A program made the translations under genes and the position numbers. The notes below the pieces were generated by a model. The model worked only from the letters and a program-made list of their open reading frames with translations. It was not told the DNA's origin and searched no databases. A stretch of DNA of 17,078 nt from Ignavibacteriota bacterium (GTDB taxonomy: Bacteria; Bacteroidota; Ignavibacteria; Tepidaquicellales; Tepidaquicellaceae). The stretch is from positions 1 to 17,078 of the forward strand of contig PNBM01000291.1 in NCBI GenBank assembly GCA_003135995.1. The letters run 5' to 3'. This document shows, one piece after another, positions 5,443 to 17,078 of the stretch. Each line of letters opens with the position of its first letter. Position 1 is the first letter of the stretch.

Positions 5443-6833
5443 AATTTAAAATATATAAATTGGCTTCCGTCCAGCACGCCTATTACAAGAATAATAATTA
5501 CAAGAAAAACATATGACAATATTTCTTTAAAACTGTTGTCATATTCGGGAATTTCAGATTTTTTTAAACGAGTCTCCTGCAAAAATTCAAACAGTAATAA
5601 AATAATTATTCCAAATCCCGCATAGAAAAATCCTTTCTTTCCCCCTTCTATAAATAAACTTCCCGGTTTCGTAAATATATTCACGGCAACGGTAAAAGCA
5701 TCATTCAGGCTGAGCCTGAATAACAGCCATGAAAAATTAATTACAATAAAACTAAATGCAATTTGAAAACTTCTGCGTAATGTTTTGTGTTTTGATAATC
5801 CCGTCCTGTAACTTAATTTCCCGCGAATTTTTTTTGTAAAAAGAGACAAAGATATTACTATACTCCAGAATATTCCCCATACTAAATAATTAATTTCAAT
5901 TCCGTGCCATAAACCGCATAACGAAAAAGTTATAAATGTGCTGATAAAATATACTAACTTAAGTTTTTTCCCTTTAAATATTTTTGTGAGTTTATAAGAA
6001 ACAGGAAGAAACACATAATCTCTTAAAAAAAGCGATAACGATATGTGCCACCTGTTCCAGAATTCTCTTAAACTAAATAAAAAATATGGACGGTTAAAAT
6101 TTTGTATCAGGTTTATTCCAAACATTTTTGCACTGCCCAAAGCTATATCCGTGTATCCGGAAAAATCAGTATAAATCTGAATCGTATATAAGAAAAGAGC
6201 CAGCAGGTAAGTTTTTCCGTTGTATTGATGTACATCCGAGAAAACCACATTTGTATAAATTGCAAGCCTGTCGGCGATAACTAATTTTTTAAACAGACCC
6301 CAGATTATAAATTTTATTCCTATGTAAATATTTTCCGAATTGATTTTATCCGGTAATTTTAGCTGTGAAAATAATCCCGCGGGTTTTTCTATCGGTCCCT
6401 GTGCTACTTTAGGAAAAAATAATCCCGCAGTCAAAAAAATACCAAAATTTGTATTAACGGCAGAATTATTTCTGTATACTTCTATATCATAAGCAATTAA
6501 AGGCAATACAAGATATGATAAACCCAGCGGATAAGGAATAATCGGGGATGCAAAAAATTTAAATAAAAATAATACAGCTATATTTAACATTACTATCACT
6601 GAAGTCAGAAATAATTTTGTTTTTACGCCTATTTGTTTTTTTACAATAAAACAGGTTAAATAATTAAATATTATTAACGAAACAAATAAAATAATATTTG
6701 AAGACGGAAGTGAATAATAATAAAATGAGCTGAACAACAATATAACAAGCCACTTGAATCGGTTTGGAAAAAAATAAATCAGGAACACACTGATAGAAAG
6801 GAAAAATATATAATTTAATGAGTTGAAAAACAT
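5439..6833 (-). CDS. MBOAT family membrane O-acyltransferase (AlgI/DltB-like)
   Basis: A 464-residue polytopic membrane protein with about ten hydrophobic segments along its length, a normal size for bacterial MBOAT proteins. It carries the family core: PKVAQGPIEKP (about 141-151), YTDFSGYTDIALG (221-233), NFNRPYFLFSLREFWNRWHISLS (245-267) and CGLWHG with the invariant His310. These enzymes move an acyl group, usually acetyl, from the cytoplasm across the membrane onto polysaccharide or teichoic acid. The next gene, an SGNH protein, overlaps its stop codon, so the two form one operon and a probable surface-glycan O-acylation module. The ATG at 6833 precedes the first membrane segment. A TTGACA-like sequence occurs about 100 bp upstream on the minus strand but I could not find a matching -10. 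Confidence 0.93.
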   Translation of the reverse strand: MFFNSLNYIFFLSISVFLIYFFPNRFKWLVILLFSSFYYYSLPSSNIILFVSLIIFNYLTCFIVKKQIGVKTKLFLTSVIVMLNIAVLFLFKFFASPIIPYPLGLSYLVLPLIAYDIEVYRNNSAVNTNFGIFLTAGLFFPKVAQGPIEKPAGLFSQLKLPDKINSENIYIGIKFIIWGLFKKLVIADRLAIYTNVVFSDVHQYNGKTYLLALFLYTIQIYTDFSGYTDIALGSAKMFGINLIQNFNRPYFLFSLREFWNRWHISLSLFLRDYVFLPVSYKLTKIFKGKKLKLVYFISTFITFSLCGLWHGIEINYLVWGIFWSIVISLSLFTKKIRGKLSYRTGLSKHKTLRRSFQIAFSFIVINFSWLLFRLSLNDAFTVAVNIFTKPGSLFIEGGKKGFFYAGFGIIILLLFEFLQETRLKKSEIPEYDNSFKEILSYVFLVIIILVIGVLDGSQFIYFKF

Positions 6834-6972: not shown

Positions 6973-7062
6973 TCGGAACGGTACCGATGTATCGGGACGA
7001 CCTCACAAGCTGACTTGTCAGAACGGTCCCGATGTATCGGGACAATCTCACAAGCTTACTTG
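6973..7062. repeat. Two 45-bp tandem repeats, each opening with the tRNA-Pro 3' end and carrying two hairpins
   Basis: Unit 1 is 6973-7017 and unit 2 is 7018-7062; they differ at few positions. Each starts with TC[G/A]GAACGG, the complement of the last nine bases of tRNA-Pro. Each contains GTCCCGAT-GT-ATCGGGAC (perfect in unit 2, one mismatch in unit 1) and ACAAG-N4-CTTGT. A third copy of the opening 9-mer begins exactly in phase at 7063, where it continues as the true tRNA fragment. Confidence 0.8.
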
Positions 7063-7104
7063 TCGGAACGGCTGGATTCGAACCCGCGACCTCCAGTTCC
7101 CAAA
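7063..7104 (-). pseudogene. tRNA-Pro 3'-half fragment (possible attachment-site remnant)
   Basis: 41 of 42 bases are identical to the 3' half of the complete tRNA-Pro at 11239-11313 and lie in the same orientation: discriminator base, acceptor strand, T arm, variable loop and anticodon 3' strand. Identity stops in the anticodon loop. The single change (7085, C for A) breaks a T-stem pair. A 3'-half duplicate ending in the anticodon loop is the classic footprint of tyrosine-recombinase integration into a tRNA gene. Weak similarity may continue for about 15 bases beyond the break (gcga-aacc), so an old decayed whole tRNA is an alternative. Confidence 0.8.
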
Positions 7105-7525: not shown

Positions 7526-8743
7526 TTACTTAATTAACAGCATTTTCTTCGTATCGCTGAATCCATCCGTCATCAATCTATAAAAATATACTCCACTGGG
7601 ATATTGCGATGCGTTAAATGTTGCTTCGTATGTGCCTGCATTTTGTTTTTCATTCACAAGTGTTTCAACTTCACGTCCGAGCATATCGAAGATAACAAGT
7701 TTCACAAATCCATTCTTTGGAATTTCATAGCGAATACTTGTTGATGGATTAAAAGGGTTCGGATGGTTTTGTTCCAATGAATATGATGATGGAACAACTT
7801 CAGAGATTGGTTTTATTCCTAAAATCTCCGTGTAAGAACGACGCCAAACACTCCAACAATTATAACCTGATATACCTATAAAGATGTAATTGTTAAAGAA
7901 TAAAATCGCTGTAGGTGATGGACCGTAACATAATCCTTGATTTTTATCTATCCAGTTTGTTCCATTATTTGTAGAAAGATAGATGCCGCTACCATTTGTC
8001 CCAGCGAGAATATTATTTTCAATGTTGGCAAGGGAAAGGATTTCTGTATTAAATGAAACATTAAAATTCCAGTTTGTGCCATTATTTGTGGAAAGATAAA
8101 TACATGCACTAGCACTACTATACCATGTCCCTGCAAATATATTATTTCCATTCACTGTTATTTTATAGACCAATTGATTATTCAACCCTGTTTGGCTCCA
8201 GTTTGCTCCATTATTTGTGGATAGATAAACTCCATTATTACCAGTTCCCGCAAAAATGTTATTCCCATTAAATGCAATGGTATTTACATTATCATTATTC
8301 AAAGCAGTTTGAACCCAGCTTGTTCCGTAATCCGTTGAAAGAAACACGCCGCCGTAAGTTCCCGCAAAAATGTCATTTCCTCTCACGGCAAGGCAAAAAA
8401 TACCTAAATGTAAAGAATTTTGAGTCCAGCTTGTTCCATTATTTGTAGAAATATAGAGCCCACTGGTATCAGCTCCTGCAAATATATTATTTCCAATAAC
8501 CGCAAAGCAATTAATTGTTTTATTATTCAAACCAGTTTGTGTCCAGTTCGTACCGTTATTTGTCGAAACATAAACACCATAAAGAAATGTTCCTGCAAAA
8601 ATATAATTTCCGTATGTCGCAAGGGACCAAACCTCTTTATTATTTCCCATTCCACTCGACATCTGCACCCACTGTGCTGAGCAGTTGTTAAATGTTAAAT
8701 TATAAATTAAAAGAGCAAGTAAAACGGTAATCATTTTCTTCAT
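7526..8743 (-). CDS. Secreted beta-propeller-like repeat protein with T9SS sorting domain (shorter tandem paralogue)
   Basis: A 405-residue exported protein of unknown target. A signal peptide (about 1-23, ending NNCSAQW) is followed by about six copies of a roughly 38-41-residue repeat of the form GNNIFAGTxxxGVYLSTNNGTNWTQTGLNN. This resembles sortilin/BNR-type propeller blades with the S-T-N-N-G-x-x-W turn. The C-terminal 85 residues are a sorting tail (NHPNPFNPSTSIRYEIP, IFDMLGREVETLVNEKQNAG, PSGVYFYRL, KKMLLIK). The repeat unit and tail are very close to those of the longer gene just upstream on the same strand (41-nt gap), so the two look like a tandem duplication and one transcript. The ATG at 8743 is used; a second ATG three codons later is also possible. 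Confidence 0.85.
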   Translation of the reverse strand: MKKMITVLLALLIYNLTFNNCSAQWVQMSSGMGNNKEVWSLATYGNYIFAGTFLYGVYVSTNNGTNWTQTGLNNKTINCFAVIGNNIFAGADTSGLYISTNNGTSWTQNSLHLGIFCLAVRGNDIFAGTYGGVFLSTDYGTSWVQTALNNDNVNTIAFNGNNIFAGTGNNGVYLSTNNGANWSQTGLNNQLVYKITVNGNNIFAGTWYSSASACIYLSTNNGTNWNFNVSFNTEILSLANIENNILAGTNGSGIYLSTNNGTNWIDKNQGLCYGPSPTAILFFNNYIFIGISGYNCWSVWRRSYTEILGIKPISEVVPSSYSLEQNHPNPFNPSTSIRYEIPKNGFVKLVIFDMLGREVETLVNEKQNAGTYEATFNASQYPSGVYFYRLMTDGFSDTKKMLLIK

Positions 8744-8784
8744 TTTTATATCTTCTATTAATTAGAATTAAGTAATTTTATTTT

Positions 8785-10806
8785 TTATTTCACTAACAAC
8801 ATCCGCTTCGTCTCGCTGAATCCATCAGTCGTTAATCTATAAAAATAAACTCCGCTTGAATATTGTGAAGCATTGAAAGTTGCTTCGTATGTTCCTGCGG
8901 TTTGTTTTTCATTTACAAGAGTTTCAATTTCACGACCAAGAGCGTCATATACAATTAATCGCACATTTTCACTTCGGGGAATTTCATATCGAATATTTGT
9001 TGAGGGATTAAATGGATTTGGATGGTTTTGACATAAAGAAAATTTGTTTGGAGCGAGTGAACTAATACTTTGAACTCCTAAAATTTCCGTAAGTGAACGA
9101 CGCCAAACAAATTGCCCATCAGTGCCTGCAAAGATATAATTGTTTGTTATCAACAAGGAATAAACCGTCGGAATAATAATAAACCCCTGATTTTTATTTA
9201 CCCAGCTTACACCATTATTTGTAGAAAGATAGACTCCATTATCTAATGTTCCTGCAAAAATATTGTTCCCGCTTGGAACAAGAGAATAAACAGTTTTATT
9301 ATTTAATGTAGTTTGAGTCCAGGATGTTCCCAAATTTGTAGAAAAACAGACTCCATTATCTAATGTTCCTGCAAAAATATTGTTACCGATGGATATAAGA
9401 GAATAAACAGTTTTATTATTCAAAGCAGTTTGAATCCAATTTGTTCCGTTATTGGAGGATAGGTAAATACCATTAATATCCGTTCCCGCAAAAATAAAAT
9501 TACCAAGTATTGTGAAAGAACGAATGGTTTTATTATTCAAAGCAGTTTGAATCCAGCTTGTGCCGTTATTTGACGAAATATAAACACCAGACGAATCTGT
9601 TCCTGCAAAAATATTATTTCCGAGTGAAGATAATGACCATACAGTTTTATTATACATTGCGGTTTGCGTCCAATTAGTCCCGTTATTTGTTGAGAGATAT
9701 ACACTTCTAATTGCCCCAGCAAAAATATTATATTGAGAGATTGAAAAGGAATATACAGTAGTAGTATTCAAATCAGTCTGTATCCAATTTGTTCCACTAT
9801 TTGTGGAAATATTTATACCGATATAATCTGAACCTGCAAAGATATTATTTCCGAGTGAAGATAATGTCCTAACATATTGATTATTTAAATCAGCTTGAAT
9901 CCAGTTTGTGCCGTTATTAGTGGAAAGATATACGCAATTTTCATACGTCCCTGCTATGATAATATTCCCGATTGTTGCAAGAGACAAAATGTATAAATTA
10001 CTCAAACCAATAGGCGTCCAATTAGTTCCGTTATTTGTTGAAAGATAAACACCATGATTAATTGTTCCCGCGACAATATTATTTCCAACTGTGGTAAGTG
10101 AAGAAACAGATATATTATTCAGTCCAACTTGAGTCCAATCAATCCCGTTATTTGTTGAGAGATATACTCCATTATTATATACCCCTGCATAAATATTATT
10201 ACCTTTAAAAGTAAATGCCCAAGCTGATTGATTCAAAGAAGTTGGAGTCCAATTTGTGCCGTTATTTGTAGAGAGGTAAGTGGTATAAAGCGAATTTCGT
10301 GCAAAAATATTATTTCCATTTGCAGCAATTCTACTAATAAATGTAGTTAAAGCGGTTTGAGACCAATTAGCGCCATTATTTGTGGTGATAAAGACTCCAT
10401 AATCTGTCGCAGCAAATATATTATTACCACTCGTAGCAAGGCCTGAAATTTCTCCGTTATTTAATGAGGTTTGAATCCAACTTAAGCCGTTATTAGTTGA
10501 AAAATAAACACCTTTATAAGTTGTCCCTGCAAAAATATAATTCCCGTTAACAGTAAAAGATGTAACCCATTCACTTTTCAAAGTAGTTTGAGTCCAGTTT
10601 GTTCCATTGTTTGAAGACAAATAAATACCTTGTTGTGTCCCTACGCAAATATAATTATTGCCGAATGTAGCAATGGAATTACCACTCCCTACCGAAAATC
10701 CATATGTTTGCACCCACTGCGAAGAGCAATTTTTAATTAAGAATGTTAAATTAAAAATTAGTAAAACGGGAATTAACACTATTAACTTATAATTAATGTT
10801 ATTCAT
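8785..10806 (-). CDS. Large secreted repeat protein with 13 propeller-type repeats and T9SS sorting domain
   Basis: A 673-residue exported protein. The signal peptide is about 1-36 (MNNINYKLIVLIPVLL...NCSSQW). I count 13 copies of a repeat built on GNNIFAGT-x-x-GVYLSTNNGTNWxQTxLNN, at 114-123-bp spacing in the DNA; several neighbouring copies are nearly the same (the NNKTVYSL copies at residues about 400-540), indicating recent internal duplication. The tail (about 590-673) has NHPNPFNPSTNIRYEIP, VYDALGREIETLVNEKQTAG, SGVYFYRL and KRMLLVK, the type IX sorting signal. Such proteins are surface or released; function beyond that is not visible, and adhesion or binding is only a guess. It is upstream of and probably co-transcribed with its paralogue. 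Both lie between the two tRNA-Pro copies. Confidence 0.87.
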   Translation of the reverse strand: MNNINYKLIVLIPVLLIFNLTFLIKNCSSQWVQTYGFSVGSGNSIATFGNNYICVGTQQGIYLSSNNGTNWTQTTLKSEWVTSFTVNGNYIFAGTTYKGVYFSTNNGLSWIQTSLNNGEISGLATSGNNIFAATDYGVFITTNNGANWSQTALTTFISRIAANGNNIFARNSLYTTYLSTNNGTNWTPTSLNQSAWAFTFKGNNIYAGVYNNGVYLSTNNGIDWTQVGLNNISVSSLTTVGNNIVAGTINHGVYLSTNNGTNWTPIGLSNLYILSLATIGNIIIAGTYENCVYLSTNNGTNWIQADLNNQYVRTLSSLGNNIFAGSDYIGINISTNSGTNWIQTDLNTTTVYSFSISQYNIFAGAIRSVYLSTNNGTNWTQTAMYNKTVWSLSSLGNNIFAGTDSSGVYISSNNGTSWIQTALNNKTIRSFTILGNFIFAGTDINGIYLSSNNGTNWIQTALNNKTVYSLISIGNNIFAGTLDNGVCFSTNLGTSWTQTTLNNKTVYSLVPSGNNIFAGTLDNGVYLSTNNGVSWVNKNQGFIIIPTVYSLLITNNYIFAGTDGQFVWRRSLTEILGVQSISSLAPNKFSLCQNHPNPFNPSTNIRYEIPRSENVRLIVYDALGREIETLVNEKQTAGTYEATFNASQYSSGVYFYRLTTDGFSETKRMLLVK
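8850..10640. repeat. Intragenic 114-123-bp tandem repeats encoding propeller blades
   Basis: The plus strand shows a recurring block of the type CC[GA]TTATTTGT[TG]GA near 9211, 9455, 9565, 9680, 9796, 9914, 10028, 10147, 10259, 10375, 10490 and 10606, coding the STNNGTNW turn. The spacing is constant and the reading frame is kept, so the array can grow or shrink by recombination without frameshift. Confidence 0.75.
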
Positions 10807-11238
10807 ATAATTATTTTTTAAATTACTTTTATAAAACTTATTTATAACAGTAATAATCCCAGTGAGATTAGATTTGGATTCATAGTTGAAACGTATATAG
10901 AAATATTAAAAAAATAAAGTTATTTATCAGGAAAAGGATTTCTTTAAAATCACTTTAAATAGTTTGTTTTGATTGCAGGCAAAATTCAGAGAGTTGATTT
11001 ATAAAAATATTCCTCTTAGATTATATACAAAACTTGCAAAATGGCTTGCAAAGATTTTTTTTGATAATGAAACCTTTAAGGGTTATAATACAGGCATAAG
11101 CACCTGGCAAGTAATCCCTTTTAGGTTTTTTTATTTTATGAAAATATTTTAGATAAAAATTGTTAAATAAATTGATAAGAATGTATATAAAAACAAATAA
11201 GGATTTGTGGAAAAGAATAGAAATTCTAACTGTTTTTG
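10807..11238. other. Intergenic region upstream of the long T9SS gene
   Basis: A 432-bp AT-rich spacer with no supported gene; the reading frame at 11021-11356 on the minus strand runs through the tRNA and a hairpin and is rejected. It holds a direct repeat CTTGCAAA (in 11033-11053) and the terminator-like hairpin at 11070-11132. No clear promoter for the 10806 gene was found. Confidence 0.4.
11070..11132 (+). terminator. Terminator-like hairpin with a T-run, plus strand, with no obvious gene to end
   Basis: AAACCTTTAAGGG (11070-11082) pairs with CCCTTTTAGGTTT (11116-11128) over 11 of 13 positions. The 33-nt loop contains its own CAGG/CCTG stem, and a T-run ends at 11132. No plus-strand gene lies upstream of it, so it may end a small RNA, block read-through, or be a dispersed palindromic element. 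Confidence 0.4.
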
Positions 11239-11313
11239 TCGGAACGGCTGGATTCGAACCAGCGACCTCCAGTTCCCAAAACTGGCGCGATAACCGGACT
11301 ACGCTACGCTCCG
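11239..11313 (-). tRNA. tRNA-Pro (anticodon UGG)
   Basis: The minus strand folds as a full cloverleaf. The acceptor CGGAGCG/CGTTCCG is 7 bp with one G-T, the D stem is GCG/CGC, and the anticodon stem CCAGT/ACTGG closes the loop TTTGGGA, so the anticodon is TGG. The variable loop is AGGTC, and the T arm GCTGG-TTCGAAT-CCAGC is followed by discriminator A. The next bases are CAA, so the CCA end is not encoded. The apparent plus-strand peptide containing GTAGFEPATSSSQ is the well-known antisense artefact of this tRNA. Confidence 0.95.
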
Positions 11314-11362
11314 AAGGTAGAATATCACAAATTTTAACTAAAATACACATTTTCAAATTCAG

Positions 11363-11390
11363 TTGAAAGGTGCATTTTTAGTATTATACT
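11363..11390 (+). promoter_or_regulatory. Probable integrase promoter
   Basis: TTGAAA (11363-11368), a 16-bp spacer and TATACT (11385-11390) form a housekeeping-type promoter. The predicted start site falls at the first TAGTGAGGA repeat, about 85 nt before the integrase ATG. Confidence 0.5.
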
Positions 11391-11396
11391 CTAAAA

Positions 11397-11436
11397 TAGT
11401 GAGGAATAGTGAGGAGTAGTGAGGAAATAGTGAGGA
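11397..11436 (+). repeat. Four helically phased TAGTGAGGA direct repeats (candidate integrase arm sites or operator)
   Basis: TAGTGAGGA starts at 11397, 11407, 11417 and 11428, a spacing of 10, 10 and 11 bp, so all four face the same side of the helix. They lie between tRNA-Pro and the integrase gene, immediately after the integrase promoter. This is where arm-type recombinase sites or an autoregulatory operator would be expected. Confidence 0.75.
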
Positions 11437-11482
11437 GTCTTTCATATAGATTATAAACAATATTCCAGAAAGGGATATTTAT

Positions 11483-12538
11483 ATGTTCTTATCTAAAAAT
11501 AGAAAAACAGGAGGTAGATATTATGTTTATTATACAGATGAAAACGGAAAGAGAAAATCAGTCACTACTGGAACCTCGTATAAGAACGAAGCGTTAGCCT
11601 TCTTAATAGCCTTTGCTAACCGACCAAAAGAAATAAAGCCCACCGAACCTGTTATAAAACCTCTTGAAAAGTTTTCTGAACTTGAAGATAAAGTAATAAG
11701 CTTTGTAAAAGATAACCATCGGAAAGGAACTGTTAGTATATATAAATTCACTATGAAATCTTTCCGTGAAACCATCGGTGATAAACCTCTCAACGAAATA
11801 ACTATTAGAGATGTTGAGCATTACAAATCTGAAAGACTGAAGAAAGTAAAACCATCTACATGTAACATTGATATTGCCACCCTGAAAGCAAGTTTTAACA
11901 TAGGATTAAAGTTCGGGTGGGTTTTACACAATCCGGTTAAAGGAATTCCCAAGCTAAAAATTCCTCAAAAAGAAAAACTATGTATGTCTGATGAAGAAGT
12001 AGCTAAGCTTTTAAGCGAAGTAAAAGAGTACCCTTTGATGCGTAATATAATTCTCTTTGGTTTGTACACTGGTTGTCGCATGAAGGAAATCACGAATCTT
12101 CAATGGAAAGATATAGATTTGAAAGATAGAATAATACAAATCCGAAACAAAGAAGACTTTAATACCAAAACAGGAAAATCAAGGTTGATTCCCATAAGCG
12201 ATAAACTGTATTCAACTATCAATCAGATTATAACTGAAAATGGAAATATAATTAACTTCCACGACCCGGATTCATATATATTTTCAAAAGAGAATAATAT
12301 TAGATTCACTAATAGCTCCGTTACTCATATGTTTAAGTATTACATTCGAAAAGCAAGACTCCCGGAGAAGTTTCACTTCCATTGTTTACGTCATACGTTT
12401 ATAACTAACTGTATAAAGCGTGGAATCAGCATTAACTACGTTCAAGCCTTGGCAGGCCACAGTGAAATAAAGACCACGCTAGGCTATATTCACATTGGAA
12501 TTGAAGACTTAAAGAAAGCAATCCTGGCTATTGATTAG
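11483..12538 (+). CDS. Tyrosine recombinase (phage/island-type integrase)
   Basis: A complete 351-residue site-specific recombinase. The N-terminal part (about 1-50) has the short strand pattern of an arm-binding domain (GGRYYVYYTDENGKRKSVTTG). Residues about 65-150 form a SAM-like core-binding domain, and about 165-345 the catalytic domain. The catalytic residues are visible: Arg199 in TGCRMKEI, a lysine in NTKTGKSR (about 229-232), His300 and Arg303 in HCLRHTF, His326 in AGHSEIKTT and the nucleophile Tyr335 in GYIH. A Shine-Dalgarno AAAGGG (11469-11474) precedes the ATG at 11483. The gene points away from tRNA-Pro and lies on the 5' side of that tRNA, an uncommon geometry for a tRNA integrase. 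It marks the start of the mobile-element part of the window. Confidence 0.95.
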   Translation: MFLSKNRKTGGRYYVYYTDENGKRKSVTTGTSYKNEALAFLIAFANRPKEIKPTEPVIKPLEKFSELEDKVISFVKDNHRKGTVSIYKFTMKSFRETIGDKPLNEITIRDVEHYKSERLKKVKPSTCNIDIATLKASFNIGLKFGWVLHNPVKGIPKLKIPQKEKLCMSDEEVAKLLSEVKEYPLMRNIILFGLYTGCRMKEITNLQWKDIDLKDRIIQIRNKEDFNTKTGKSRLIPISDKLYSTINQIITENGNIINFHDPDSYIFSKENNIRFTNSSVTHMFKYYIRKARLPEKFHFHCLRHTFITNCIKRGISINYVQALAGHSEIKTTLGYIHIGIEDLKKAILAID

Positions 12539-12554
12539 GCTGGGATTGTTTTTT
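12520..12554 (+). terminator. Integrase terminator overlapping its stop codon
   Basis: AATCCTGGCT (12520-12529) pairs with AGGCTGGGATT (to 12547) in a 10-bp stem including G-T pairs. The TAG stop sits at the loop edge, and GTTTTTT follows. The stem spans the last codons of the integrase. Confidence 0.6.
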
Positions 12555-12572
12555 CGATAATTAAACATAATC

Positions 12573-12608
12573 AAGTAATCACGATTGCAAAATCGTAGTT
12601 ACTTTTTT
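12573..12608 (+). terminator. Second intrinsic terminator after the integrase
   Basis: AAGTAA-TC-ACGATT-GCAA-AATCGT-AG-TTACTT is a 12-bp stem with one mismatch and one wobble, closed by GCAA and followed by TTTTTT. It is stronger than the hairpin 20 bp upstream and insulates the integrase from the convergent operon. Confidence 0.78.
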
Positions 12609-12993
12609 CGGAACAGAGATAAGTACTGCATAATGGAGGAGTGTTATCGTAAGTTATCCGTATTAAGATGACTCTTATAATCTCTCTTATTAAGTTCTCT
12701 TATAGTTAGCTCTATCTACTTGAATAACTTAATAATCTTGATTATACCCCTTGGTTATATATATCTTGATTGTGTATTACTATGCTATGTAAGGCCTATT
12801 ACTATGAAAGCTTATGTTATGAAAAAAAAATCCATTTTTTTTGGGGGTGGAATATTCCTTTCCCGCTAATTCAATCTATTTCTGCATTTTTTTTTCGTGG
12901 CTGTATATAGAGCCAAACGAATTTTCCATTTAAGTGGAATATCAGTATTTCTGTCCATCAATTTTCCACTCAAGTGAAAAATGTAGGGGTGAG
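12609..12993. other. Non-coding spacer rich in short direct repeats between convergent genes
   Basis: A 385-bp stretch with no gene. It has a loose CTTAT-type series at about 12-13-bp spacing (12674-12715), ATCTTGATT twice (12735, 12763), TATTACTATG twice (12775, 12797), an A8/T8 inverted repeat near 12821-12840, the palindrome GGAATATTCC (12849-12858) and a pair of 18-bp repeats at 12922-12979. Such density suggests protein-binding or element-end DNA, but I cannot assign it. Confidence 0.4.
12922..12979. repeat. Pair of 18-bp palindromic direct repeats
   Basis: TTTTCCATTTAAGTGGAA (12922-12939) and TTTTCCACTCAAGTGAAA (12962-12979) agree at 15 of 18 positions and are 40 bp apart. Each is internally palindromic (TTCCA...TGGAA; CACT-CA-AGTG). 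They sit just past the stop of the 12994 gene and could be paired dimer-binding sites. Confidence 0.6.
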
Positions 12994-13722
12994 TTATTTT
13001 TTGTTAGATAGATTATTAGGATATATTATATTACCATCGTCATCTGTTATTGTAATTTTAATCATACCTTCAATTTCTTTTCTTATTTTAGTTGGAGGGC
13101 TTTTAATTACAATGTATCGCTTTTTATCTTCATCCCATCGACTCCAGTCGTATCTTGTAAAAATAAAACTGTTCTCATAATAATGACCAATTACTTTTTC
13201 CTCGTTCGGATCATCATAAGGATGATATTCATAAAATCCAAAATCAGAAATTCCAATGACCGGTTTGTATTCACTAATATTTTTATCCAGGTTACTTCCA
13301 TTACTAATTAAATCCGAAAGAATAAAATTTCTTGGCTCACTTCTAATGTTATTATAATCGGTCAAATACAATCTTAAACAGTCAAGACTATGACATTTAG
13401 TAAGACTTTTATAGACGACAGCGGAAGGACCATCATGTTCATAAATATATTGTGACTGCTTGATGTTATAATAATCTGAATTAATGTGGTGGGCAATCCA
13501 GTGCCAATCCATCGCCCAGTCTTTTGTATAGTGTCCAAAATCACTTGCTAATTGTTGATTTGATTTAACATTCTCTAATGCGACACAAACGATATCAGCA
13601 AGATGTTTGATTTCGGTATTGCTAAACTGATATTCTTCATCCATTGGTTCAACAATAAACTTGTTTACATAGTTTAAAGATCTTTCCCGTAATGTTAATT
13701 CAAGGATATTCATAAAGAACAT
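12994..13722 (-). CDS. Uncharacterised protein, third gene of a three-gene operon
   Basis: A 242-residue soluble protein (233 if the second ATG is used) that I do not recognise. It has no signal peptide or membrane segment. It is rich in aromatic residues and Asp: DWAMDWHWIAHHIN at about 69-82 and FGFYEYHPYDDPNEE at about 172-186. The ITITDDDGNII end is a beta-hairpin-like tail with a basic terminus (LSNKK). His/Asp/Trp density near 63-80 could mark a metal or catalytic site, but no family pattern is evident. Two starts are possible: ATG at 13722, or ATG at 13713, which overlaps the upstream TGA as ATGA. Either way translation is coupled to the preceding gene, so the two products are probably made in step and may act together. 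Confidence 0.7.
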   Translation of the reverse strand: MFFMNILELTLRERSLNYVNKFIVEPMDEEYQFSNTEIKHLADIVCVALENVKSNQQLASDFGHYTKDWAMDWHWIAHHINSDYYNIKQSQYIYEHDGPSAVVYKSLTKCHSLDCLRLYLTDYNNIRSEPRNFILSDLISNGSNLDKNISEYKPVIGISDFGFYEYHPYDDPNEEKVIGHYYENSFIFTRYDWSRWDEDKKRYIVIKSPPTKIRKEIEGMIKITITDDDGNIIYPNNLSNKK

Positions 13723-14501
13723 TCATTTATTTCTATAATTTTATTAACAATTCTAGTCGCTACTTCTTGATTAAACCATCCATTTGATGGGTGGCGAGTT
13801 AACCAGACTCTACCACAACTTGAACCGCGCCATTTAATTGGAAGTTGGCTTCTAGGATTAATTACAATATCTTCTTCAATATAATTATTATTTGCATCAA
13901 GTCTTGGAAAAGATAATTCACTTGGAAAAATAAAACCTAACTTTTCAAAAGTATTTTTTAATTCACTTCCAACTTCTTTTCCCATTATAAAAAAATATAT
14001 ATCATTAGGTTTCTGTTTTAATTTGTACTTAATGAATTGTTTAAGTAAATAAATTCTTTTATTTAATATTCTATTTCTAAATTTTACTTTTTCTGTCTGT
14101 GAATTCATAATACCAAATATCTCTTTGTATTGTTTTGGGTAAGGTGCAAGATCTCTATTGCACCCTAGTGGATATAAATTTGAACAAAATTCTTTATACT
14201 CAATATTATTGTTAAAGATTAAATATCCTTCTTCGGTTCCTATATTTTCTCTATAAATATCTCTGCGTATTTTATATGCTAACCGAGTTTGTTCTTCTTC
14301 TGTTCCGGGTGCAGTATTAACAGGATTATTTTGATAATATAAGTTTATTATTTTTTTTCTTTTAGAACACCAATTTCGATAATCCTTTAAACTTATGAAA
14401 GGACTATTTTCTTCTATAGCAATAAAAATTATAGAAGCCGTTAATGCATTTCCATAACCTAAAAATTTAATTGGGATATTAATTCTTTTATATTTTCGCA
14501 T
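13710..14501 (-). CDS. Uncharacterised protein with motifs resembling the uracil-DNA-glycosylase superfamily; second operon gene
   Basis: A 263-residue soluble protein not recognised with certainty. Four segments fall in the order expected for the UDG fold. SIIFIAIEENSPF (about 23-35) could be a first strand plus active-site loop, and EFCSNLYPLGCNRDLAP (about 104-120) resembles the TN-x-x-P segment. IYFFIMGKEVGSELKNTF (about 168-185) resembles a central strand plus GKxA-type helix. VWLTRHPSNGWFN (about 232-244) resembles the HPS leucine-loop motif. This reading is a remote-similarity inference; if right, the protein binds DNA and may excise or sense a modified base. It starts 3 nt after the upstream stop and overlaps the downstream gene, so it is the centre of a tight operon on the presumed mobile element. 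Confidence 0.6.
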   Translation of the reverse strand: MRKYKRINIPIKFLGYGNALTASIIFIAIEENSPFISLKDYRNWCSKRKKIINLYYQNNPVNTAPGTEEEQTRLAYKIRRDIYRENIGTEEGYLIFNNNIEYKEFCSNLYPLGCNRDLAPYPKQYKEIFGIMNSQTEKVKFRNRILNKRIYLLKQFIKYKLKQKPNDIYFFIMGKEVGSELKNTFEKLGFIFPSELSFPRLDANNNYIEEDIVINPRSQLPIKWRGSSCGRVWLTRHPSNGWFNQEVATRIVNKIIEINECSL

Positions 14502-14504
14502 AAA

Positions 14505-15005
14505 TTATTCTTTTGGAAATTCTTCAATTGGGATAATTTGTCTAGAATCTTTTTCACTAAAATGTTTTCTAGCTTCTTTTATGTCAGCTTTTGTATATTT
14601 TCCTTTCACAATATTTGCCCCAATTACAATCGCACTAACTACTCCAAACAAATCCGGCGGATTATCGATTGATACTTGAAAACCAAAACCATAAACCCCA
14701 TATTTAAAATCATCATTTTCGATTTCATTTATTAATTTAAGTTCTACCATTCTTTCTAATTCTTTATGTAATTTCAAGGGTTCGCTTTTTGAATAATAAA
14801 ACAAATCCCAATTTCCAGTGGCACTATTTAAGCGTGAAAACACTCTTGTTGAGTTACCTGCATTAAACGAATCTTGAACAGATTCTAATTTTTCTCCTAT
14901 ATAAGACCTTTCGCGACGGCTTATTGATCCAATTTCCCAAGCAAAGTAAAGTCCAATAGGATAACCATCTAGTAATTTTCTTTTATTTGAAAAAAGTATG
15001 TCCAT
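14505..15005 (-). CDS. Uncharacterised protein, first gene of the three-gene operon
   Basis: A 166-residue soluble protein that I do not recognise. It has no signal peptide or membrane segment. Visible pieces are an N-terminal helix-rich part (ISRRERSYIGEKLESVQDSF, about 28-47), the aromatic stretch GNWDLFYYSKSEP (about 64-76), the helix HKELERMVELKLINEIEN, and a strand pattern KYGVYGFGFQVSIDN. A hydrophobic Gly/Ala/Val segment (FGVVSAIVIGANIVKG, about 119-134) is too short and too mixed to call a membrane helix. The C-terminus is charged. The ATG at 15005 has no Shine-Dalgarno and lies about 40 nt past a strongly structured leader. The next gene starts 3 nt after its stop. Confidence 0.7.
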   Translation of the reverse strand: MDILFSNKRKLLDGYPIGLYFAWEIGSISRRERSYIGEKLESVQDSFNAGNSTRVFSRLNSATGNWDLFYYSKSEPLKLHKELERMVELKLINEIENDDFKYGVYGFGFQVSIDNPPDLFGVVSAIVIGANIVKGKYTKADIKEARKHFSEKDSRQIIPIEEFPKE

Positions 15006-15044
15006 TTTTAATTTGCTTGATTTTTTTAAGATAAAGAAATTGCT

Positions 15045-15104
15045 CCGAGGTACAACATCACGCGGTGCTGTACCCCGGACCCGGAAGTGTGCTACCGCGT
15101 AATG
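15045..15104 (-). ncRNA. Structured leader with two interleaved inverted repeats (pseudoknot or switch candidate)
   Basis: Stem B pairs CCGAGGTACA (15045-15054) with TGTACCCCGG (15069-15078), 9 of 10. Stem A pairs CATCACGCGGTGC (15056-15068) with GCTACCGCGTAATG (15091-15104), 13 pairs with one wobble and one bulge. The arms alternate B-A-B-A, so they either form an H-type pseudoknot or are mutually exclusive folds. The patch is markedly GC-rich against its surroundings and lies about 40 nt upstream of the first operon gene. Which strand is functional is not proved; a DNA-level recognition site is also possible. Confidence 0.5.
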
Positions 15105-15133
15105 CTTAACTCAGGGATTTGCACAACTCCTTT

Positions 15134-15146
15134 GATTTTCAAAATC
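15134..15146. promoter_or_regulatory. Palindrome in the operon leader
   Basis: GATTTTCAAAATC has perfect 6-bp arms around one base. It lies between the possible -10 (15188-15193, TATAAT on the minus strand) and the structured leader, so it is a candidate operator. No matching -35 was found. Confidence 0.35.
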
Positions 15147-15288
15147 GTCATCTCAGTTTCTATCATTCATGGTATTTGTTTTTTTCGATTATATAAAGAT
15201 GAATAGTAAGTGGCGGAAATTTAAACAGACTTAATTTAACATATATTCTAAAAGTTCAAAAGATGCCCCTAAAAAAACTTAAAACCGC

Positions 15289-15304
15289 CGACTCGTAAGA
15301 GTCG
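15289..15304 (-). terminator. Stem-loop before the phased repeats, possible minus-strand terminator
   Basis: CGACTC-GTAA-GAGTCG is a perfect 6-bp stem. On the minus strand it is followed, after GCGG, by TTTT and then TTTTTTT, a two-step T-run. It could end the transcript of the initiator-like gene some 280 nt downstream of its stop, or simply border the origin. Confidence 0.45.
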
Positions 15305-15344
15305 TTTATAATGATTTATATTAATTTATAATAATTTATAAGAT
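15305..15344. repeat. Four TTTATA repeats at exact 10-bp spacing (candidate DNA unwinding element)
   Basis: TTTATA starts at 15305, 15315, 15325 and 15335, each followed by four mostly A/T bases. Exact 10-bp phasing of AT-rich units next to iterons is the layout of the melting region in iteron-type origins. Confidence 0.6.
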
Positions 15345-15417
15345 CTATGAGGACCGGCATAATGTATGTAACTTGATTATATTATTGGCATTTAACCATT
15401 TTTTGTGTATAAAAACA

Positions 15418-15589
15418 TTGCATGACTCATTGAAATATTTGCATTACTCTTAAAATATATTGCATAATTATTAGAAAAATTGCATTACTCTCTTAAAATA
15501 TTGCACAGTAATTTGATATATGAAAATTGAATAGCTGTGCAAATTTTACTTTAATACAGTTGAACAATGCAATATTTTACTTTAAGCAG
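15418..15589. other. Iteron array: candidate plasmid-type replication origin
   Basis: TTGCA[T/C] starts at 15418, 15439, 15460, 15480 and 15501 (spacing 21, 21, 20, 21). The fuller unit is TTGCATTACTC followed by TTAAAATA; copies two and four are the best. TTGCACAG (15501-15508) is mirrored by CTGTGCAA (15535-15542). Two further inverted copies of the form TGCAA-ATTTTACTTTAA lie at 15538-15559 and 15568-15589, the last overlapping the stop of the initiator-like gene. Two-turn spacing, the AT-rich repeats beside it and an initiator-like gene next door fit an iteron replicon. Partition or repression sites are the alternative. Confidence 0.65.
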
Positions 15590-16829
15590 GAACCTCAGCT
15601 TTTTCTTCTATTTCACAGAAATGATCCAATCTCCAAAAATACTCATTTACTGTTTCATTACTAATATTTTGTGCCTTAAGAACTTTATCAATAATATCTT
15701 TATTTGTACAAACTCTAGTTAATCGCTCTATTATTTCAAAATCTTTTTTAAGCTTTTTCGTATCTACATCTTCCGTAATGTAAATATATCCATATTCATT
15801 ATATGGTGAATCCTTTTCATTTTCTAAAGTATTTGGTCCATCGGTTGCAAAGTTATTTTGAGAAATTTCATTATCATCCAATTCAATATCTTTTGAAATA
15901 TCAACGTTTACGTCTTCGTCATCATTTAATGATATTTTATTATCCATTTTTATATCATCATCCGATATTTGTTTTTGATCGTCATTTCCACAGTATTCTC
16001 TTATCGATTCCGGATTCTTTTTTGCTTCATCTTTTTTTAGAAAGCATTCTGTTTTCTGCATCGGTTCAAATTCATAGGTTGATTCTTCTGCGTCAGAATC
16101 ATCCGCAGTAATCACTTCATTAATCTGAATAATGTGATTACTCATTTTACTATTCTGAATCGTATTATAACTTTTCTTAAATGGCTTGCAGGTTCCATAG
16201 TCATATACAGTATTTATGATATTATATCCTTCATCCATTTCGATGTAACCCATTTTTTGTAATACTCTAAGGTATTTCTTCACATAATTTTCATCGTGGT
16301 GTAAAAATGCACTAATTGACTCAGATGTTTCTCTGGATTCTATAATCGGCGCATTAATAAGATGATGACGATTTTTGGCGATAAGATAATGATAGACCTG
16401 TAATACTTTTACGAGTGTTTTCTCTTTTTTACTTGTATCCGGCAGAGCATTTTTTAATCTCGATAAAAAATCGAGCAAGAAATTATTATTTACTTTAATA
16501 TAATTCTGAAAACCCTCGACTTCCTCAAATAAAGAGTTACATATGTCATGATTTGCTTTTACAAGATGCCCCTTTTTTTCTACTAATCCATATTCGGTTA
16601 ATTGATCTTTCGCTCTTGATATTGTCGCTGGATCAGTGTCTAATAATTCACAGATCAGATTTGTATCTGTTTTGAAAAAATTATTCGGATTGTACTTTAT
16701 AGTTTTGACATCTGACAAATAGATACATATGTATACCCAAGGTGTATATACTGATTTGAATTTTTTGTGTTTGTCGAAAAGAAAATCCGGTTTCATTTCA
16801 ACATGGCATTTATCGGCTCTTAGTTTCAT
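15582..16829 (-). CDS. Initiator-like protein with two winged-helix domains (probable plasmid/element replication protein)
   Basis: A 415-residue soluble protein. Residues about 28-92 form a winged helix: a first helix WVYICIYLSD, recognition region CELLDTDPATISRAKDQLTEYG and wing LVEKKGHLVKA. Residues about 138-212 form a second one (VYHYLIAKNRHHL, then SISAFLHHDENYVKKYLRVLQKMGYIE, wing EGYNIINTVYD). About 240-345 is a very acidic, Asn/Asp/Ser-rich linker, and about 350-412 is a helical C-terminal part. Tandem winged helices are the architecture of Rep initiators that bind iterons, and an iteron array starts directly after the stop codon. I do not see a specific family signature, so a DnaD-like or regulatory protein is possible. 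It follows the partial upstream gene by 3 nt in the same operon. Confidence 0.65.
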   Translation of the reverse strand: MKLRADKCHVEMKPDFLFDKHKKFKSVYTPWVYICIYLSDVKTIKYNPNNFFKTDTNLICELLDTDPATISRAKDQLTEYGLVEKKGHLVKANHDICNSLFEEVEGFQNYIKVNNNFLLDFLSRLKNALPDTSKKEKTLVKVLQVYHYLIAKNRHHLINAPIIESRETSESISAFLHHDENYVKKYLRVLQKMGYIEMDEGYNIINTVYDYGTCKPFKKSYNTIQNSKMSNHIIQINEVITADDSDAEESTYEFEPMQKTECFLKKDEAKKNPESIREYCGNDDQKQISDDDIKMDNKISLNDDEDVNVDISKDIELDDNEISQNNFATDGPNTLENEKDSPYNEYGYIYITEDVDTKKLKKDFEIIERLTRVCTNKDIIDKVLKAQNISNETVNEYFWRLDHFCEIEEKAEVPA

Positions 16830-16832
16830 AAT

Positions 16833-17078
16833 TTATAGAGATTTTGGTTTATTATAAAAATTGAATTTAATATCAGTACTGAAGATAACTCTCCCTTCTT
16901 CTTTACTGTAAGAATGTATATAGTAATCGTTGTATACTAAAATGGAGCGACAGCTTTTATGGTGCGGTTGGACATATTCGGTATTTTCAATCATACCAAA
17001 TTTTACTAGTTCTCTGAAAGCACGCCTGATTATATTTCTGCATACTTTGGTTTCTCGGTGTATCTGATTGATATTAAG
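16833..17078 (-). CDS. Winged-helix DNA-binding protein, N-terminus off the right edge
   Basis: From the right edge, the minus strand reads 81 codons without a stop (from CTTAATATC) to TAA at 16833-16835. The visible part includes a helix-turn-helix followed by a wing: IHRETKVCRNIIRRAFRELV, then KFGMIENTEYVQPHH, and strands SILVYNDYYIHSY. It resembles the winged helices of the next gene, which starts only 3 nt after this stop, so the two are one operon. It could be a second replication or control protein of the element. The true start and length are unknown. Confidence 0.65.
   Translation of the reverse strand, partial: LNINQIHRETKVCRNIIRRAFRELVKFGMIENTEYVQPHHKSCRSILVYNDYYIHSYSKEEGRVIFSTDIKFNFYNKPKSL

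Follow-up and report, generated by a model that had tools for sequence, protein, structure and literature searches.

The three closely packed genes on the minus strand between positions 12,994 and 15,005 are best explained as a mosaic that came together at the junction of a mobile element, and not as a three-component machine, a reading to which we would give a probability of roughly 0.68. Two of the three proteins encoded there can now be placed, and the first of them in transcription order is probably a fragment. The DNA under study, referred to here as the window, is the whole stretch of 17,078 bases, and it forms the first part of a contig of 24,974 bases (C199) in a draft genome of 4.2 Mb.

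An earlier note on this DNA had drawn attention to the close packing of three open reading frames, and their coordinates, the 3-nt gap between the ORFs of 166 and 263 aa and the stop/start overlap that follows were all confirmed (Table 1). According to the ORF list, the order of transcription is 166, 263 and 242 aa. With the listed start of the last ORF the overlap is 13 nt, yet the alignment of its family favors a start at Met4 (position 13,713), which is the exact start in 7 of the 11 other members, and we therefore take the reading frame to encode 239 aa and to overlap the preceding gene by 4 nt (ATGA). None of the three ORFs is plausibly a chance frame, given its length: at their own composition the probability of an open frame of such length is about 4e-10 for the 242-aa ORF, 3e-12 for the 263-aa ORF and 1e-7 for the 166-aa ORF, and codon usage favors the annotated frame in each. 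Third-position GC differs among them (166-aa ORF, 0.17; 263-aa ORF, 0.14; 242-aa ORF, 0.25), so the three may have separate histories.

Table 1. Features of the window, in order of their first position.
Feature	Position	Strand	Remark
45-bp copy of the 3' half of tRNA-Pro (11236-11280), 98%	7060..7104		likely att remnant
tRNA-Pro (TGG)	11238..11313	-	5' end faces integrase
Tyrosine recombinase/integrase	11483..12538	+	
242-aa ORF (239 aa from Met4)	12994-13722 (12994-13713 from Met4)	-	third in transcription order
263-aa ORF	13710-14501	-	second in transcription order
166-aa ORF	14505-15005	-	first in transcription order
40-bp segment matching contig C5	14986..15025		39/40 to the first 40 bases of C5, same genome
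Terminator-like hairpin, 14 pairs	15044..15079	-	between Rep-like gene and 166-aa ORF
Stretch downstream of Rep-like gene	15119..15348		79% identity to the corresponding stretch of L039
415-aa winged-helix protein, Rep-like	15582..16829	-	backbone gene
Winged-helix backbone gene	16833..17078	-	cut at window end (contig runs to 24974)

A search with the 166-aa protein returned four proteins, itself included. A 407-aa relative encoded on a Poribacteria contig (L009) is matched, at 52% identity, over residues 245-407 alone, and a relative at a second locus, L092, is 45% identical to the 166-aa protein. The relatives of this C-terminal module that were seen whole have 398, 407 and 414 aa (three loci: L009, L092 and L093), and the N-terminal part of the 407-aa protein matches NERD (E 0.0019) and Hjc (E 0.013), both below the curated cut-offs; a D...EVK pattern can be made out in it by eye. 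The likeness to this unnamed NERD or PD-(D/E)XK family of about 400 aa thus consists of the C-terminal module, which is present in the 166-aa ORF and collinear with it, whereas the family's N-terminal nuclease-like domain is not, the copy in the window being without some 240 N-terminal residues. When the genome itself was searched with the 407-aa protein, the copy on C199 (residues 241-406) was found along with one weak match (E 0.022), the latter being all that was seen elsewhere in the genome of the D...ExK domain that the window copy lacks. A profile of the 407-aa family matched 8 of the 395 genomes of the phylum, own genome included; in the seven others, two matches span the C-terminal module (the genes of 398 and 414 aa) and five match the N-terminal half. 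Neither the phage nor the plasmid search with the 407-aa relative gave a match, and a search of genome contigs with alignment A2 returned one locus. The reading frame is intact, but set against relatives seen whole it is not that of a complete gene. Several neighbors of the wider family were recorded in passing. A BrnT-type toxin gene stands 3' of the 407-aa relative in L009; in L087 and L097 a distant NERD-like relative comes directly after the genes for an AbiEii toxin and a DUF6088 protein, the match in L087 being one of the five to the N-terminal half.

The point at which the 166-aa ORF begins is marked by a segment of 40 bp that also opens another contig of the same genome (C5), covers the first codons of the ORF and gives way to diverging sequence directly after them. 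The simplest reading of these sequences is that the 166-aa ORF would be a 3' remnant, the gene having lost some 240 codons from its beginning at a putative recombination junction, although the junction rests on a single 40-bp match at a contig end, where an assembly fault may be involved. Several observations pull the other way. The 166-aa ORF is open with coding-like codon usage, and its cluster (P0014) consists of one sequence listed for 15 contigs; in addition, two further relatives are listed as short (P0015, 260 aa, and P0016, 186 aa), from which it follows that a stand-alone C-terminal form may be real. A 257-aa metagenome protein, P0017, in which a phytoene-synthase-like N-terminus is fused to the 166-aa protein's C-terminus on a contig of 1428 bp, is probably a chimeric assembly and was left out of the alignments. 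Upstream of the ORF there is a terminator-like hairpin; hairpins of this type are no more numerous in the window than in its shuffles, and a promoter scan gave 23 candidates against 19.2 (sd 4.2) in shuffles. Near the end that shares the 40-bp segment, C5 encodes a protein of 556 aa (L049, 1173-2843) whose GNPGSGKS stretch is P-loop-like and which might be a STAND-type defense protein.

The mobile-element setting put forward in the earlier note is supported: a tyrosine recombinase and a tRNA-Pro lie on one side of the three genes, and on the other, from position 15,582 onward, is an integrative element that recurs within the bacterial family, several genomes of which carry it (L036, L038, L039 and L041 as well as the window). 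Its genes are the Rep-like and second winged-helix genes, those for a sigma-54-type AAA protein, a HATPase and a ClpP-like protein (the last Pfam-confirmed only in contig C235), a small HTH-like ORF, and an integrase with a tRNA; to our knowledge, no name exists for it. To the right of the window the contig continues with genes for the sigma-54-type AAA protein, a 180-aa protein, the HATPase and others, and the relative of the second winged-helix gene on C235 has a GntR match below the cut-off. Matches to the Rep-like protein were found in 6 of the 99 relative genomes searched, own genome included, amounting to 12 rows and 11 distinct places. The kin loci (L037-L045) share the Rep-like and winged-helix pair and the far-side AAA and HATPase genes with the window, but have no relative of the cassette. 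The 166-aa ORF is separated by 114 bp from the conserved backbone sequence upstream of it, and the alignment with L039 ends at window position 15,119, which indicates that the cassette abuts the Rep end of the element; window 11,000-15,100 had no match in L039, and positions 15,126-15,225 are 75% identical to another contig of the same genome, C98.

Whether the Rep-bearing element simply carries the cassette as cargo, as the earlier note had proposed for a mobile element in general, was considered. Gene order in three kin copies (L038, L039 and L041) speaks against it, since there, unlike in the window, the integrase is at the opposite end beside a tRNA (102, 56 and 95 nt from tRNA-Glu, -Lys and -Pro, respectively), on the side away from the 3' end of the Rep gene and after a small ORF that is HTH-like by eye. 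The integrase at 11,483 sits elsewhere than these, and may belong to a second element. On the other hand, pieces of integrase are found in L038 on the Rep side as well (5781-6401), and genes for 185 and 126 aa stand between them and Rep; this order resembles that of the window, makes a cargo place on the Rep side possible and so counts to some degree against the mosaic, and it keeps the cargo idea alive. Further traces of integration were noted around tRNA-Pro. On C235 (3997-4347, L016), four copies of the 5' half of tRNA-Pro lie beside an integrase fragment, and these, with the 45-bp copy of the 3' half in the window, suggest that integration has occurred more than once at the anticodon region. 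At 7526-10806, in the interval bounded by the window's two half repeats of tRNA-Pro, stand the genes of two adjacent proteins with many tandem repeats of about 39 aa and, by eye, a C-terminus of the secretion-sorting type.

The family of the third protein comprises 12 proteins, the window's own and 11 others at 42-75% identity, all 12 of which make up alignment A1. One of them, P0004 (51% identical to the window protein), matched 12 phage records by tblastn (best E 2e-17), and the window protein itself aligns to all five of the phage loci that were fetched, with E values in that small set of 5e-15 to 8e-4. In four of the five (L005, L006, L007 and L008) a recognizable portal gene is no more than about 3 kb away, directly adjoining in L006 and one or two genes away in the others; in L004 the portal profile was matched only through a nudix-like stretch, a point that weighs against the mosaic. 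The phage forms and the window's clade have in common the core VYK ... LYL ... F.LSELI.NG.N.GK...W.P, and the 239-aa protein shares with the phage minor-head proteins encoded near portal genes the pattern (VYK)...LYL...EP..F.L..LI.NG.N.G....W.P and a C-terminal KITI-like segment. At the level of sequence, these comparisons show that the 239-aa protein is homologous to, though diverged from, phage proteins whose genes have a portal gene nearby. All five phage relatives have a CxxC and an HxxCxC motif, whereas in the window's clade HxxCxC is gone from all 12 rows and CxxC from 11 (it persists in P0006), the window protein being without either, and an insertion of about 20 residues occupies the motif position. 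As the loss of HxxCxC is common to every row of A1, the divergence must be older than this locus. IMG/VR pattern scans found nothing for the three proteins, nor for A1, A2, P0004 or P0008, from which it appears that the clade may live outside recognized phages; a search of genome contigs with A1 and a plasmid tblastn with P0004 were likewise without matches.

Placing the protein within a named head-protein family is a matter for more caution. No Pfam MuF match was found by hmmscan for the window protein, for four phage relatives (L004, L006, L007 and L008) or for P0004. The fold model of the 242-aa protein (pLDDT 83.6) retrieved from BFVD by Foldseek two phage proteins annotated as Hint/intein (E 7e-9 and 3e-7, with low TM-scores of 0.46 and 0.36), a MuF-like fusion (E 0.089) and head-morphogenesis proteins (E 0.11 upward), and fold searches of the PDB gave nothing convincing and no head protein among the matches listed. 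PMC5576092 gives SPP1 gp7 as a studied example of the MuF superfamily, and states that muf genes adjoin portal genes and that, of the muf genes found in bacterial genomes, 96% belong to prophages or their remnants. By that account the setting of the 239-aa gene, with no portal among the proteins scanned nearby, is unusual for the family, if the relation holds. The same figure, together with the homology to the portal-associated phage proteins, is consistent with the 239-aa gene being the leftover of a prophage head module of which the rest was deleted. We regard this origin as unlikely, if by no means far-fetched: portal, terminase and capsid families were absent from 15 C199 proteins scanned (6 in the window and 9 to the right of it, the scan having covered ORFs from 11,483 rightward), and the loss of HxxCxC throughout A1 predates the locus.

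The middle gene is an orphan. Among approximately 5.8 billion clustered proteins, the 263-aa protein has near-identical copies only, and tblastn found no match for it in phages or plasmids. Within the phylum, weak matches (E <= 0.1) occurred in 20 of 395 genomes, own genome included, the best outside the own genome having an E value of 7.8e-4 over 51 residues; these were dropped, being scattered over different parts of the protein and in some cases containing stops. Three of its stretches, IIFIAIEEN, NLYPLG and RVWLTRHPSN, bear an apparent likeness to motifs of uracil-DNA glycosylases (UDGs), and this resemblance is the sole point in favor of its being a remote UDG-like enzyme that acts on phage DNA. 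Such an identity seems very improbable, as an hhalign comparison of the single sequence with an alignment from 30 UDG loci scored 12.7 when the best shuffled control (20 shuffles) reached up to 18.9, Pfam gave no match, and the single-sequence fold model, at pLDDT 37.6, was useless for the purpose.

What, then, of a joint function? The earlier note had taken the packing of the genes to imply co-production and a common role, with phage defense as one candidate, and had named the single occurrence of homologues as the outcome that would tell against it. In L009, L092 and L093, the relatives of the first gene stand, in the stretches fetched, without 263- or 242-like neighbors, the middle gene has no relatives in the protein search beyond near-identical copies, and the third is related to phage head-module proteins, which together argue against a three-gene system. 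No match to the 263- or 242-aa protein was found in any of 19 related loci, of which 8 represent the 407-aa family and 11 are element or contig loci, and all three genes in order were not seen in unrelated genomes in the protein searches and loci reached. Scans of the three proteins against Pfam, PADLOC, NCBIfam and PHROGs returned nothing significant (best E 0.022), PADLOC in particular giving no match for the 263- and 242-aa proteins and that single weak match for the 166-aa protein, and sequence searches of the PDB nothing below E 0.27. A joint defense system is unlikely. A Cas10 match in a PDB profile search with alignment A3 (E 0.0035, 73 residues) was taken as chance.

A more modest version of the idea is a two- (or three-) gene accessory module in the cargo slot of the element. 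The orphan and the minor-head-like protein would then act together against phages or aid a satellite, e.g., through binding of a portal or prohead, and the first gene would be a genuine stand-alone C-terminal domain. The ATGA coupling fits this idea and makes the 263-aa/239-aa pair the most plausible functional unit. It is also favored by the short forms P0015 and P0016, by the small genes between integrase pieces and Rep in L038, and by the IMG/VR scans. Moreover, P0003, a relative of the third gene, and P0015, a relative of the first, are at an equal divergence from the window (75-76% identity) and apparently on one contig of 21,860 bp; the first and third genes may consequently be a long-lived pair, an observation that also weighs against the mosaic. 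If that contig is indeed shared, it either lacks the middle gene or carries a form too divergent, or too different in size, to be detected. With near-identical copies of the middle gene only in the protein database, the lack of co-occurrence and the PADLOC results, such a module nevertheless seems distinctly improbable.

The mosaic reading, to which we return, would have the following history. The Rep-bearing element would have arrived at the locus, or recombined with it, removing the nuclease half of the first gene and perhaps its promoter, and the in-frame 3' fragment that remained, the 166-aa ORF, would probably be inert. The 239-aa gene would be a captured minor-head gene, and, if its product still works, the likeliest mode of action would be to bind an infecting or helper phage at its portal or prohead.

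The locus carries a caution of wider relevance, in that close packing of genes beside an integrase can arise by truncation at an element junction, with no selection for joint function. What is worth keeping is the small clade, the 12 rows of A1, of phage minor-head relatives that have lost HxxCxC, here standing without recognized head genes. It is conceivable, although we consider it a long shot, that this clade represents a minor-head protein domesticated by non-phage integrative elements, which would insert at an infecting phage's portal vertex and block or redirect packaging, with the 263-aa protein as a partner. No matching paper was found in the literature on domesticated head proteins, which is no proof of novelty; if true, however, that reading would amount to an undescribed kind of capsid-interference module, and, should portal binding by the 239-aa clade be demonstrated, mobile elements would be seen to have a new means of acting on phages.
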